Positions 3,203-53,331 of a stretch of DNA of 53,331 nucleotides are shown piece by piece (positions within the stretch are counted from its first letter, which is position 1; each line of letters begins with the position of its first letter). Position numbers and translations under genes: made by a program. The stretch lies in assembly GCA_903870815.1 (NCBI GenBank), contig CAIQEI010000079.1:1-53331 (forward strand). Reading direction: 5' to 3'. The notes beneath the pieces were generated by a model that worked only from the letters and a program-made list of their open reading frames with translations, had not been told where the DNA came from and did no database searches. This DNA comes from an uncultured Verrucomicrobia subdivision 3 bacterium (GTDB taxonomy: Bacteria > Verrucomicrobiota > Verrucomicrobiia > Limisphaerales > UBA11358).

Positions 3203-4771
3203 ATGTTTCGACTCTGTGGCCTGCTGGTAATCATTGCATGTCTGCTGACCGCGCCGGTCGGCTTCGGCGCGGAGTCCGCCGAGGTGAATCTGGATTACGT
3301 AGCGCAGCGCGCCCTGGAACGCGCCCAGTCGCCCTTCCGGTCCCCGCGCGCCGACCTGCCAAAGGTGCTGGGGCAGGAAAATCTCGACTACGACAAATAC
3401 CGGCAAATCCGCTTCCGCCGCGAGCAGGCGCTCTGGACGGCGGACAACCTGCCGTTCCGGGTGGAATTTTTTCATCCGGGCTACTATTACCAGGAGCCGG
3501 TGCATGTGAACGAGTTCACGGCCACGCACACGCAACCCATCCGGTTCGTCCAGGATTTTTTCGACTACGGCAACTTGCACATCGCCAACCAGATTCCGAC
3601 GAAAATGGGCTATGCCGGTTTCCGCGTGCTGAACGAGTTGAACGCGACCAACCGCTGGGATGAACTCGGGTCGTTCCTCGGCGCGAGCTATTTCCGGCTG
3701 CTTGGCAAAAACCTGTGCTACGGCGAATCCGCCCGCGGCCTGGCGCTCGACTCCGGTGAGGGCGACCGGGGCGAGGAATTCCCCATCTTCACCGACTGGT
3801 GGCTTGGCAAACCAGAGCCGGACGACACCGAGCTGCGCCTATACGCGATCCTCGACAGCGTGAGCTGCGCCGGCGCGTATGAATTTTTTATCCGCCCGGG
3901 CGAGACGACGACGGCGAGCATCAAAGCAGTGTTGTATTTCCGCGATACCAACCTGGTCACCGCCGTGGACAAAAACCGGAGGCCGTCCAAGACCATCGGA
4001 CTTGCGCCGCTGACGAGCATGTTTTGGTTCGGCAAGGACACGGAACGGAAGTTTGACGACTACCGCACGGAGGTGCACGACAGCGATGGCCTGCTCGTCC
4101 ACATGGGCAACGGCGAAATCTTCTGGCGGCCGCTCGACAATCCGCCCGCGACCCGGCATCAGGTCTTTCACGCGCCGAACATCAGGGGCTACGGCCTGCT
4201 CCAGCGCGAACGTAATTTCGGCGCGTATCAGGACATGTTCAACCTCTACCACGAGGTGCCGAGCGTGTGGGTAGAGCCGGATGGCAACTGGGGCGATGGC
4301 GATCTGCACCTCGTCGAATTGAGCACCGGCTACGAGGGCCTGGACAACATCGTCGCGTTCTGGGATCCGAAAAACAAACCCGCGCCGCTCCAGCCGTACC
4401 GCTTCGGCTACACGCTGCACTGGGAAGGCGGGGAGGCTGACTTGCGGCGTTCGGAGAACCGCGTCGTCGCCACGCGCATCGGCCCGGACGCGCAGTTTCG
4501 CGGCGCGCGGCAGTTCGTGATTGATTTTGACGGCCCGCAACTGGATGCGATCCCGGAAAACAAGCCGCCGGTGGCCATCGTCAATTGCAGCGGCGGCGCG
4601 CACATCGCGGACGCGTTTGTGGCCCGCAACCATTTTCTCGGCACCTGGCGCGTGATCCTGAAAATGGTGCCGCCCGCGGACACCAACGCGGCCGTGGATT
4701 TGCGCTGCACCTTGCAGCAGGGGACCAACGCCGTCGGCGAAACCTGGGTGTATCAATGGAGCCCGCACTAA
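3203..4771 (+). CDS. opgG: Periplasmic glucan biosynthesis protein OpgG/MdoG family
   Basis: 522 aa with N-terminal signal peptide; NLDYDKYRQIRFRREQALW, FRVEFFHPGYYYQEPVHVNEF and RGYGLLQRERNFGAYQD are OpgG/OpgD-like. Confidence 0.88.
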   Translation: MFRLCGLLVIIACLLTAPVGFGAESAEVNLDYVAQRALERAQSPFRSPRADLPKVLGQENLDYDKYRQIRFRREQALWTADNLPFRVEFFHPGYYYQEPVHVNEFTATHTQPIRFVQDFFDYGNLHIANQIPTKMGYAGFRVLNELNATNRWDELGSFLGASYFRLLGKNLCYGESARGLALDSGEGDRGEEFPIFTDWWLGKPEPDDTELRLYAILDSVSCAGAYEFFIRPGETTTASIKAVLYFRDTNLVTAVDKNRRPSKTIGLAPLTSMFWFGKDTERKFDDYRTEVHDSDGLLVHMGNGEIFWRPLDNPPATRHQVFHAPNIRGYGLLQRERNFGAYQDMFNLYHEVPSVWVEPDGNWGDGDLHLVELSTGYEGLDNIVAFWDPKNKPAPLQPYRFGYTLHWEGGEADLRRSENRVVATRIGPDAQFRGARQFVIDFDGPQLDAIPENKPPVAIVNCSGGAHIADAFVARNHFLGTWRVILKMVPPADTNAAVDLRCTLQQGTNAVGETWVYQWSPH

Positions 4772-50848: not shown

Positions 50849-51094
50849 CTACTGACGCGCTGGTGTCGCGACGCTCGCCACCGCCTCGCAAAGTTCCGCC
50901 ATGGAAAATGGCTTGATCAGCAGGTGGTCCACAATGCCGTTCAGCGTGCCATTGGCCTTGAGGTCATCAGCAAAGGCCGTGGCCAGGATGATGGGCAGGG
51001 CGGGGTGACGTTGTTTGATGGCGGCGGCCAGTTGATCGCCTCTCATCCCATGCATGAGGTAATCGGTGATTACCAGGTCAAATCGCTCTGTTTC
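50849..51094 (-). pseudogene. Response-regulator receiver domain fragment (N-terminus missing)
   Basis: RFDLVITDYLMHGMRGDQLAAAIKQRHPALPIILATAFADDL...LLIKPFSMAELCEAVASV; lacks the beta1 acidic pair and continues into unrelated sequence. Confidence 0.75.
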
Positions 51095-51104
51095 CAGCCG
51101 GGTG

Positions 51105-51192
51105 GTGATGGCTTCTGGCCGGCGTTCTGGATGCTGGGGACGAACTATGATCCCAACGCCCGCTGGCCGCACTGCGGCGAAATTGACATACC
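51105..51192 (+). pseudogene. GH16 glycoside hydrolase fragment
   Basis: Plus strand GGDGFWPAFWMLGTNYDPNARWPHCGEIDI matches the GH16 active-site neighbourhood; no upstream or downstream GH16 sequence present. Confidence 0.75.
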
Positions 51193-51210
51193 GGAGACCC
51201 GAATTATTGG

Positions 51211-51462
51211 TTGAGGTTTGTAATGGGTTCGGCTGTCTGCCGGTGGACGAGTCCAGACGGCAAGGAGCGAGTTTATTTGATTGCCCGGCACGACGGCGGT
51301 TTTGGTTACGGTAGCGAGTATTTCAGTGACGCCGAATTCGAGCATTGCTGGGTTCCGATTGGTGCAGGTGGTAGTATTTATGGTTCGGAGGAGATTGCCG
51401 TGAGAGAGATTCACGCGTCATATTCTTGGTCAAGAGATGTTAAACGTGAAGATTACGCCTAA
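51211..51462 (+). CDS. Small hypothetical protein
   Basis: 83-aa ORF (or from MGSAVCRWTSPDGKERVYL at 51223); no family recognised. Confidence 0.45.
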   Translation: MRFVMGSAVCRWTSPDGKERVYLIARHDGGFGYGSEYFSDAEFEHCWVPIGAGGSIYGSEEIAVREIHASYSWSRDVKREDYA

Positions 51463-51481
51463 CCAGTCGCCGTTTCCGCCC

Positions 51482-51523
51482 GCCCGGTCAAACCGGTCGC
51501 TGAAAGCGACTGGGTAGCCGGGC
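51482..51523. repeat. Palindromic repeat family copy A
   Basis: gcccggtcaaaccggtcgctgaaagcgactgggtagccgggc; abuts the stop of 51524..51832. Confidence 0.8.
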
Positions 51524-51832
51524 TTACCCCTGCGGACGATACCTGTCGTCGTTGTCGGGAGCGGCTTCAGCCACGCTGGGTTCTGCTCTTTCTGGTTGCT
51601 CCCAGTGAACTGGACGGCTGGTTCGTAGCCGTGACGTCCCTGCAAAGTGTTTATCAATGCGCCAAAGTAGCACGACGGTGGCCACTGCACAGACAGCGAT
51701 TAAGATGTACCAGAAAAATGTGAACCACATTGCCAAATAAGGATGCTGGAAAAGAAATGGCAGTCCGTTATTTATGGCCTGCGCCTGTTGGTTAAGAAGT
51801 TGTTGCATTTGGTCTTGGCTCATATTTTGCAA
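51524..51832 (-). CDS. Small single-TM hypothetical protein
   Basis: 102 aa MQNMSQDQMQQLLNQQAQAI...YLAMWFTFFWYILIAVCAVATVVLLWRI. Confidence 0.55.
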   Translation of the reverse strand: MQNMSQDQMQQLLNQQAQAINNGLPFLFQHPYLAMWFTFFWYILIAVCAVATVVLLWRIDKHFAGTSRLRTSRPVHWEQPERAEPSVAEAAPDNDDRYRPQG

Positions 51833-51885
51833 CTAGACACGAAATGACCGTTCGCGGTCAAGTGCTTTTACAGTGACGGCACCTC

Positions 51886-51948
51886 GTACGCCGGAGGCGT
51901 CTGGCCCACCGGTCGAAACCGGTCGCTAGAGCGACTGGATAATCCGGG
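51886..51948. repeat. Palindromic repeat family copy B
   Basis: gtacgccggaggcgtctggcccaccggtcgaaaccggtcgctagagcgactggataatccggg. Confidence 0.8.
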
Positions 51949-52014
51949 AAACTGAGCACAGGCGGGTGTGGTGCGGGGAACTAGGCGGCTTAGCTCCGTC
52001 TAGCCGTTGTGGTT

Positions 52015-52341
52015 TTAGAAGAAATGAAGAAAAACTACCGTCCAAATCGCCGCAAACGCAGAACTCATCGCCATCACAGCTGCGCCGTGTCCATGCTGGT
52101 TTTTGAATAGCAAATAGACGCCAACAAAAAACCCGACCGCTGGGAGCAAGACAGCCAGCAAATAGCCCATCGCAATTATCCCGTCAAACGAATCTGATTC
52201 AACATTCGGCTTGAATGAATAATCCGAGCCTTTGGCGTAAATGTGTGTTTCCTTGCCGCAAGAAGGACACCAAACGGTTTTCTCCATGCCTTCATCCTCA
52301 AACACGGCCTGACAATGTTCGCATTGTGCTTTGATTATCAT
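52015..52341 (-). CDS. Zinc-ribbon + two-TM hypothetical protein
   Basis: MIIKAQCEHCQAVFEDEGMEKTVWCPSCGKETHIYA (CxxC...CxxC) followed by hydrophobic segments. Confidence 0.65.
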   Translation of the reverse strand: MIIKAQCEHCQAVFEDEGMEKTVWCPSCGKETHIYAKGSDYSFKPNVESDSFDGIIAMGYLLAVLLPAVGFFVGVYLLFKNQHGHGAAVMAMSSAFAAIWTVVFLHFF

Positions 52342-52361
52342 AGTATGCGCCTCCGGCAACT

Positions 52362-52721
52362 TCAGTTTGCACCGTTCCAAAAACAAACAATGTGTTTTGG
52401 ATGAAAATGAATTTCATCATCGGACTTCAGTATTGTCGTGAACTGGGGCGAACTGTCGAGCCTGCCGACCACAAATGCGCCACCAGACTCAATGACTCTC
52501 ACCCACATATGCTCTGCTGTAAATGTCTGCCCATTCTTCACAACGTGGTCTCTGTATCTGAATATCAGCTTTACAATGTCGCCAAGCTTCACGGCATCGC
52601 GAGTAGCGTCATCGGGAATCGGGTATCGTAGAAATTCATGCCTCCGGGCATCAGCTTGGTCAACAACCTCCAAATCATAGCCGTCCTTTTCAAGCGTGGG
52701 ATATGGATATGGCGTGGACAT
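52362..52721 (-). CDS. Hypothetical protein, DUF2314-like
   Basis: 119 aa from MSTPYPYPTLEKDGYDLEVV; AEHMWVRVIESGGAFVVGRLDSSPQFTTILKSDDEIHFHPKHIVCF. Confidence 0.55.
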   Translation of the reverse strand: MSTPYPYPTLEKDGYDLEVVDQADARRHEFLRYPIPDDATRDAVKLGDIVKLIFRYRDHVVKNGQTFTAEHMWVRVIESGGAFVVGRLDSSPQFTTILKSDDEIHFHPKHIVCFWNGAN

Positions 52722-52870
52722 GTGCGACCTACCAATAATATTCACCCCTAGTCAACCATCCCGGGTTCAGGTCAGATTCTGCTGGTTGCATTAAGGCATC
52801 TTCATCCCGCCCCTCCCGGCTCGTCAATCCCAATTTCACCGGATGAAGATTTTATCACCATCCCCGGCCC

Positions 52871-52941
52871 ACCCGGTACGCTGGAAGCGTCTGGTGCCCG
52901 ACGGGCACTGGTACGCCTTTGGGGCGACTGGATTAGCCGGG
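52871..52941. repeat. Palindromic repeat family copy C
   Basis: acccggtacgctggaagcgtctggtgcccgacgggcactggtacgcctttggggcgactggattagccggg; three short 3-nt-loop hairpins in a row. Confidence 0.8.
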
Positions 52942-52977
52942 AAGACCGGGCATGGACGGGGTGTGGGGTGAGGGCGG

Positions 52978-53331
52978 TCACTTCTTCTTGTAATAAATCT
53001 TTAATCCATCCAGCTTAGCAACAAAAGCCAATTTTTCCTTCACAAGTGTCTTTAACCTTCTGATTGCGGTCTGGTATCCCAATCCCAATCCTTCAACCAA
53101 ATCTTTGGCTGTCTTCTCTTCGGTGATAAATTTCAGAATATCGTCATTGGAAATCTTTGAACGAGGCCTGCGGGACTTCTTGGGTTTTGTTTCAACGGAG
53201 ATTCCGTGTTCCTTTATTGCCCCAATCACCGTTGCCAACTCTGCTTCCAATCGTTCCTTTTCTTTCAAAAGACCAGATTGAATATTTTTTTTGAGCTTTT
53301 CCAATTCGGCAAGCTGTTCAAGAATCGTCAT
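52978..53331 (-). CDS. Small coiled-coil + winged-helix-like hypothetical protein
   Basis: 117 aa; N-terminal coiled coil, basic linker KPKKSRRPRSK, C-terminal wHTH-like DDILKFITEEKTAKDLVEGLGLGYQTAIRRLKTLVKEKLAFVAKLDGLKIYYKKK; start at the window edge. Confidence 0.5.
   Translation of the reverse strand: MTILEQLAELEKLKKNIQSGLLKEKERLEAELATVIGAIKEHGISVETKPKKSRRPRSKISNDDILKFITEEKTAKDLVEGLGLGYQTAIRRLKTLVKEKLAFVAKLDGLKIYYKKK

Follow-up and report, generated by a model that had tools for sequence, protein, structure and literature searches.

Is the run of small genes and palindromic repeats at the right end of this DNA an array of gene cassettes, and if so, in what state does it survive? The window, by which we mean the whole stretch analysed here, is an entire contig (C79, 53,331 bases) of the assembly G000, which comprises 3.17 Mb in 176 contigs and is 96% complete. 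A preliminary description had pointed to three copies of a palindromic repeat downstream of minus-strand small genes, and had read the succession of ORFs and repeats on the minus strand as mimicking the order of integron cassettes. The results presented here suggest instead that the region is probably, although by no means surely, an eroded cassette remnant devoid of integrase, adjoining a separate and local family of REP-like hairpins. The array reaches the end of the contig, the start codon of the last ORF being the final base triplet of C79; an integrase or an intact attC may lie just outside, which counts against the reading of an eroded region.

Integron integrases and attC sites in the order

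Of 320 genomes of the order, 99 have a match to the integron integrase profile TIGR02249 above its cut-off, compared with none of 14 controls; counted from the table, 19 of 48 congeners have one. Since complete integrons are reported in 20% of gammaproteobacterial genomes (PMC8618304), this bacterial group is rich in integrons. Integrons in Verrucomicrobiota were already known, as were clusters of attC sites without an integrase (CALIN; PMC8618304). The genome studied here has no match above the cut-off: in this 96% complete assembly, the TIGR02249 search returned only XerC/XerD-like proteins scoring below the 265-bit limit (XerD-like, L106:7745-8725; XerC-like, L107:9094-10128). The order-wide scan likewise gave no integron integrase for G000, although gaps in the assembly and the contig end could, with a small chance, hide one. 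The genome thus encodes tyrosine recombinases, as XerC/XerD systems do, but they are of the housekeeping type, are carried by other contigs and have no link to the array. The same search found, at the start of contig C86 and adjoining a sigma factor gene, a phage-type integrase that is apparently split into two overlapping ORFs (L108:194-1534, minus strand).

Integron integrases were located in the order, 60 loci were fetched, mostly at integrases, and attC sites were found beside them. A covariance model (R2) was built from 25 aligned attC sites, nearly all adjoining an integrase and one taken from a locus (L136) that carries a homologue of the plus-strand gene described below; its R/L-box structure was drawn up manually. 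Base pairing in this model is upheld because covariation exceeds that of shuffled alignments: the covariation score is 0.280 versus 0.075, 94.5% of cells are paired versus 82.1%, and 10 pairs are changed on both sides versus 5.5 in shuffles (none of 500 shuffles as high), while sliding the partner by 1-3 columns makes pairing fall to 19-42%. R2 recovers 38 attC sites in the first 20 loci, its own training sites included, and 59 in 40 further loci outside the training set. At two loci (L199 and L213) the array is complete and counts at least ten attC sites.

A plus-strand gene with homologues in cassettes

The gene that lies immediately to the left of the first repeat on the plus strand (ORF+, 51199-51462) had been left uncounted in the preliminary description. 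Its annotated start is TTG 51211 or ATG 51223, but homology spans 51199 to the stop codon TAA at 51460-51462, and its 5' end is cut. In a 196-genome sample of the order, ORF+ has relatives that are 80% identical (G208) and 64% identical (G187), and a weak one (G127). The homologues are directly followed by an attC recognized by R2 with 75.9 bits in G208 (L132) and 39.2 bits in G187 (L137), and they are cassette genes in this sense at L132/L136 as well as at L137. Comparison of ORF+ with the G208 homologue gives dN 0.13 and dS 1.2 (NG86), and from these values the family is under purifying selection.

Of an attC, ORF+ itself has no more than the initial 16 nt (GCCTAACCAGTCGCCG, 51457-51472, plus strand), which hold its stop codon: the TAA sits within GCCTAAC, the attC R'' box. 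When a position weight matrix derived from positions 1-16 of these 25 attC sites was scanned over both strands of the window, 51457-51472 scored 21.9 bits, compared with 11.1 for the runner-up in the 53 kb and 17-27 for real sites. With the matrix lengthened to 20 and 24 positions the score drops to 12.9 and 7.9; the attC therefore has a correct start and is interrupted after about 16 nt. The motif GTTAGGC/GCCTAAC, which had been noticed near the first repeat only, is thus a real attC end and is indeed confined to that copy, at 51457-51463, one base to the left of the position first given. Part of the 9 nt immediately after GCCTAAC (CAGTCGCCG) could come from the repeat arm CCAGTCGC and not from attC. 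With attC reduced to this stub, ORF+ would no longer be excised or shuffled by the ordinary attC route.

The cassette of G208 has features of its own. A perfect inverted repeat of 13 bp (GTTAGGCGTAATC ... GATTACGCCTAAC) flanks it (L136:4663-4998), so that both of its ends look like an attC boundary. At the same locus (G208:C694; L136 positions 1-1870 and 4330-4600), the last codons of purB (SLDFHFKEVNNRFKKL) recur about 2.6 kb downstream, where they directly precede the attC of the ORF+ homologue; this repetition may have been left by the insertion of a cassette or element at the 3' end of purB.

The junction to the left of ORF+

Three gene fragments converge within about 90 nt at the left of the array. 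The first, on the minus strand (50849-51172), is a response-regulator receiver domain that lacks its N-terminal third (Pfam PF00072, E 1.5e-13, profile positions 33-110 of 111). It is overlapped on the opposite strand by 29 codons of a GH16 beta-glucanase (51110-51196, plus strand), recognized in a phmmer search of PDB, where laminarinase 8xph (E 1.5e-7) and numerous further GH16 chains were matched, and the third fragment is the 5'-cut ORF+. The overlap of the GH16 and response-regulator fragments may mark a mosaic junction, arisen either by a true rearrangement or by an assembly join. A neighbouring gene has a 65% homologue in another genome (G004), and no other gene is common to the two loci.

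The right end of the contig would be foreign or chimeric if a join made in assembly or binning had added unrelated DNA at about 51196. The meeting of three truncated genes speaks for such a join, as do the fall in GC from about 0.60 to 0.47-0.55 moving rightwards, the confinement of the repeat to this place in the genome, and the end of the contig soon after. ORF+ nevertheless has relatives in the same order and an attC end of the type of that order, and foreign cassettes residing within the chromosome would shift composition equally; we therefore hold a chimeric contig end to be unlikely, albeit worth keeping in mind.

The minus-strand genes

All other genes of the array, which is a set of small and foreign-looking genes, are on the minus strand. 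Gene A (51524-51832) encodes an orphan protein of 102 amino acids with a predicted transmembrane stretch; it matches no Pfam family above the cut-off and no NCBIfam family, and searches of plasmid and viral sequences gave no relatives of either gene A or ORF+. Gene B1 (52015-52341, in an ORF open to 52386, with a probable ATG at 52341) encodes a small protein with two hydrophobic stretches and a zinc-ribbon-like N-terminus (CxxC/CxxC), for which zinc-ribbon matches are sub-threshold only; a distant homologue, 35% identical, is found at L140. The following gene (52362-52745, probable ATG 52721) encodes a DUF2314 protein (PF10077, E 8.9e-7, above the cut-off). Gene C (52978-53331), the start codon of which is at the contig end, encodes an orphan protein of 117 amino acids with no Pfam or NCBIfam family, and a search of 195 other genomes of the order gave no homologue.

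The DUF2314 gene has a homologue that is 75% identical at L147, without attC, and another, 36% identical, at L148/L220, with an attC just downstream (39.6 bits with R2 in L148). The sequence common to the window and L147 upstream of the gene reaches, judged by eye, TAGG(T/C)CGCACATG and not further, a limit that would fit a cassette start at TTAGGC. A close homologue carried with an attC is known for only one of the five genes of the array, and none is known for genes A and C, which weighs against the reading of an eroded cassette region.

Three clusters of hairpins in the gene gaps

The three repeat copies, to which no strand is assigned, lie at 51471-51524 (A), 51886-51951 (B) and 52876-52944 (C), and score 37.4, 60 and 47.7 bits, respectively, with a sequence profile built from the copies themselves (R1). 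Their kinship was assessed by pairwise similarity, scored ungapped and gapped, against 1,700 background segments. Local similarity is 31 for B and C (background maximum 18), 27 for A and B (15) and 17 for A and C (15), so that the first two relationships are secure while A-C by itself is marginal. A conserved end, GCGACTGG-nTnnn-CCGGG on the plus strand, begins at 51506 (A), 51931 (B) and 52924 (C). The existence of three related palindromic copies with a common core is thereby upheld, but the 18-nt core pattern on which the resemblance had first been recognized is poor evidence of kinship when taken alone: with 3 mismatches allowed it matches 5 times in the window where 1.8 matches would be expected, a count that is attained in 5 of 100 shuffles.

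Copy A contains two perfect hairpins (loops in square brackets), CCGGT[CAA]ACCGG and GTCGCT[GAA]AGCGAC, the latter followed by TGG, and its outer arms CCAGTCGC (51463) and GCGACTGG (51506) are also able to pair. Copy B contains three, ACGCC[GGA]GGCGT, ACCGGT[CGAA]ACCGGT and GTCGC[TAGA]GCGAC, two of which are followed by (C)TGG. In copy C, two perfect hairpins, ACGCT[GGA]AGCGT and GTGCCC[GAC]GGGCAC, and a near-perfect one (ACGCC/GGCGA) are all followed by CTGG, and the whole set lies within an outer stem. Altogether there are 7 perfect hairpins with stems of 5-6 bp, 5 of them followed by TGG or CTGG, and all lie in gene gaps. Between B and C, pairing in the first stem is kept through a C-G to T-A change. 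Folded as single-stranded DNA, copy A gives a z of -2.46 and copy C (52860-52955, minus strand) a z of -3.12, with none of 200 shuffles as good, whereas copy B (minus strand) gives -0.41, no better than shuffles.

The minus-strand stop codons lie 0-1, 66 and 36 nt upstream of copies A, B and C, in agreement with the distances of 0, 66 and 36 nt first given. With no more than three gaps between genes here, and one copy in each of them, the gene-repeat order arises of itself from the genes being co-directional. The only recognizable cassette gene, ORF+, lies on the opposite strand and ends exactly where copy A begins, so that copy A is placed between convergent genes; the minus-strand succession of ORFs and repeats is not a cassette order.

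Run with filters off over the whole window, R2 reports nothing at A, B or C, its best score (9.8 bits, E 1.6) lying elsewhere. The repeats are therefore not attC sites of the type found in this order, and the cassette reading holds for the presence of genes of the cassette pool but not for the three repeats. On other G000 contigs, over 228 kb, R2 likewise found no attC. The window has zero intact attC, where a CALIN would have at least two close sites without integrase and an integron several cassettes each ending in a fitting attC.

The repeat is local. Neither this genome nor any of 48 congeners yields a further copy with R1, the next-best match in the 49 genomes of the family having 17 bits (E 0.035), and all three copies are confined to one stretch of 1.5 kb; the prospect that such repeats would also stand beside core genes throughout the genome, raised at the outset as an argument against a cassette array, did not materialize. 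Hairpins in tandem with the same kind of tag occur in the window as B and C and are rare elsewhere: 262 kb of other contigs have 4 cases, and 647 kb of integrase loci of relatives have 2. Those inspected outside the window are not related in sequence to A, B or C. Several candidates were discarded. The core pattern matches viral contigs exactly at 59 places; in nearly all of these the flanks differ from those of the repeats, and most are one recurring coding stretch (GDWIIRG). A gapped pattern made from B and C has 3 matches GTDB-wide, with flanks unlike the repeat, and in 388 genomes of the phylum it finds B and C themselves plus scattered single matches. A blastn search with copy B in 293 genomes of the order gave two matches of 27-28 nt that are not the repeat. 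No Rfam family matches at its gathering threshold, copy A having a sub-threshold match of 17.8 bits compared with a gathering score of 57.

Origin and possible roles of the repeats

We propose that ORF+ would have arrived as a gene cassette carrying the attC type used by the integrons of this order, would later have lost its 5' end to the mosaic junction, and would have lost its attC past the first 16 nt, where copy A begins. The DUF2314 gene may come from the same mobile pool of small genes and its neighbours perhaps likewise, judging by their surroundings. The region resembles an integron cassette or a CALIN in its small accessory genes, in ORF+ as a homologue of cassette genes with its stop codon in the R'' box and in having no detected integrase; it differs from a CALIN, which is by definition a cluster of attC sites without integrase (PMC8618304), in that none of its attC is intact. 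The copies A, B and C would be short GC-rich hairpin clusters, most hairpins followed by (C)TGG, that spread or were duplicated locally and would at most serve as transcript-end hairpins.

REP elements include GTAG- and CGTC-tagged palindromes, and the verrucomicrobium O. terrae is reported to be rich in GTAG repeats (PMC3733652). As in such elements, the hairpins of A, B and C are short, rich in GC and placed in gene gaps, they have a short conserved unpaired tag at one end, and pairing is kept as the stems change. They differ in their tag, which is CCAG/CTGG and not GTAG or CGTC, and in being grouped by twos or threes with the same orientation; moreover, there are three copies within 1.5 kb and not many dispersed ones. 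REP elements normally exist in many copies, and a number of three counts against the REP-like reading.

The copies could instead have a function at transcript ends only, as terminators or as stabilizing hairpins in the 3'-UTR of small operons, with no mobility involved. Each repeat lies just 3' of a minus-strand gene, copy A being in addition between convergent genes, and stems are conserved while their sequence changes (the GGA-loop stems of B and C). A run of T is absent after all three copies, and copy B folds no better than shuffles. Since no such structures follow other genes of the genome, this repeat is not its general terminator. We hold a pure transcript-end role to be improbable, at about the level at which we place a chimeric contig end, and the two are not fully mutually exclusive.

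It is much less probable that A, B and C serve a new cassette system as its recombination sites, in which a recombinase would recognize the folded hairpins and each gene or gene pair with its repeat would be a mobile unit. The presence of one copy per gene gap over this 1.5 kb and nowhere else in the genome or the congeners, the mobile small-gene type of the genes, the position of copy A exactly on the attC break and the folding of copy C, better than all 200 shuffles, would be expected of such a system. Against this, the unit is found in no second genome, either by the pattern search of the phylum sample or by the GTDB-wide scan with its 3 dissimilar matches, no dedicated recombinase adjoins the array, the homologues of ORF+ use ordinary attC and not this repeat, B and C are without the inverted-end symmetry of attC, and the spacing of repeat and gene on the one side varies (0, 66 and 36 nt). 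That the repeats acted as substitute sites which took over after attC breakage, making this a new array based on folded-DNA sites, is more doubtful still. Equally implausible is a complete and functional attC of about 63 nt at copy A (GCCTAAC...GGTAGCC), the array being a true CALIN: the outer arms pair at 12 of 14 positions and a simple attC scan scores 10.5 (4 of 300 shuffles as high), but another tile of the window scores 15.0 in the same scan, the covariance model does not report the site, its R' box GGTAGCC has two mismatches to GTTRRRY and its 3' side is without an L' box of the type of this order.

If the region is indeed an eroded cassette remnant, it illustrates a route to cassette fixation, in which a stub of 16 nt around the stop codon is all that is left of attC, so that the gene stays and mobility is lost, while homologues of ORF+ elsewhere retain a full attC. 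The attC model of the order is now at hand for counting such remnants and, with the count of integrases, is more useful than the cassette itself.

A run of GC-rich hairpins was also seen at the locus of the close DUF2314 homologue (L147, reverse complement 2630-2860; G086:C29), with GAA and GGA loops (GTCCCGGAGGGAC, CCCAGCGTTTCAACGCTGGG, TCCCGAAGGGA). It is like A, B and C in general build and different from them in sequence.
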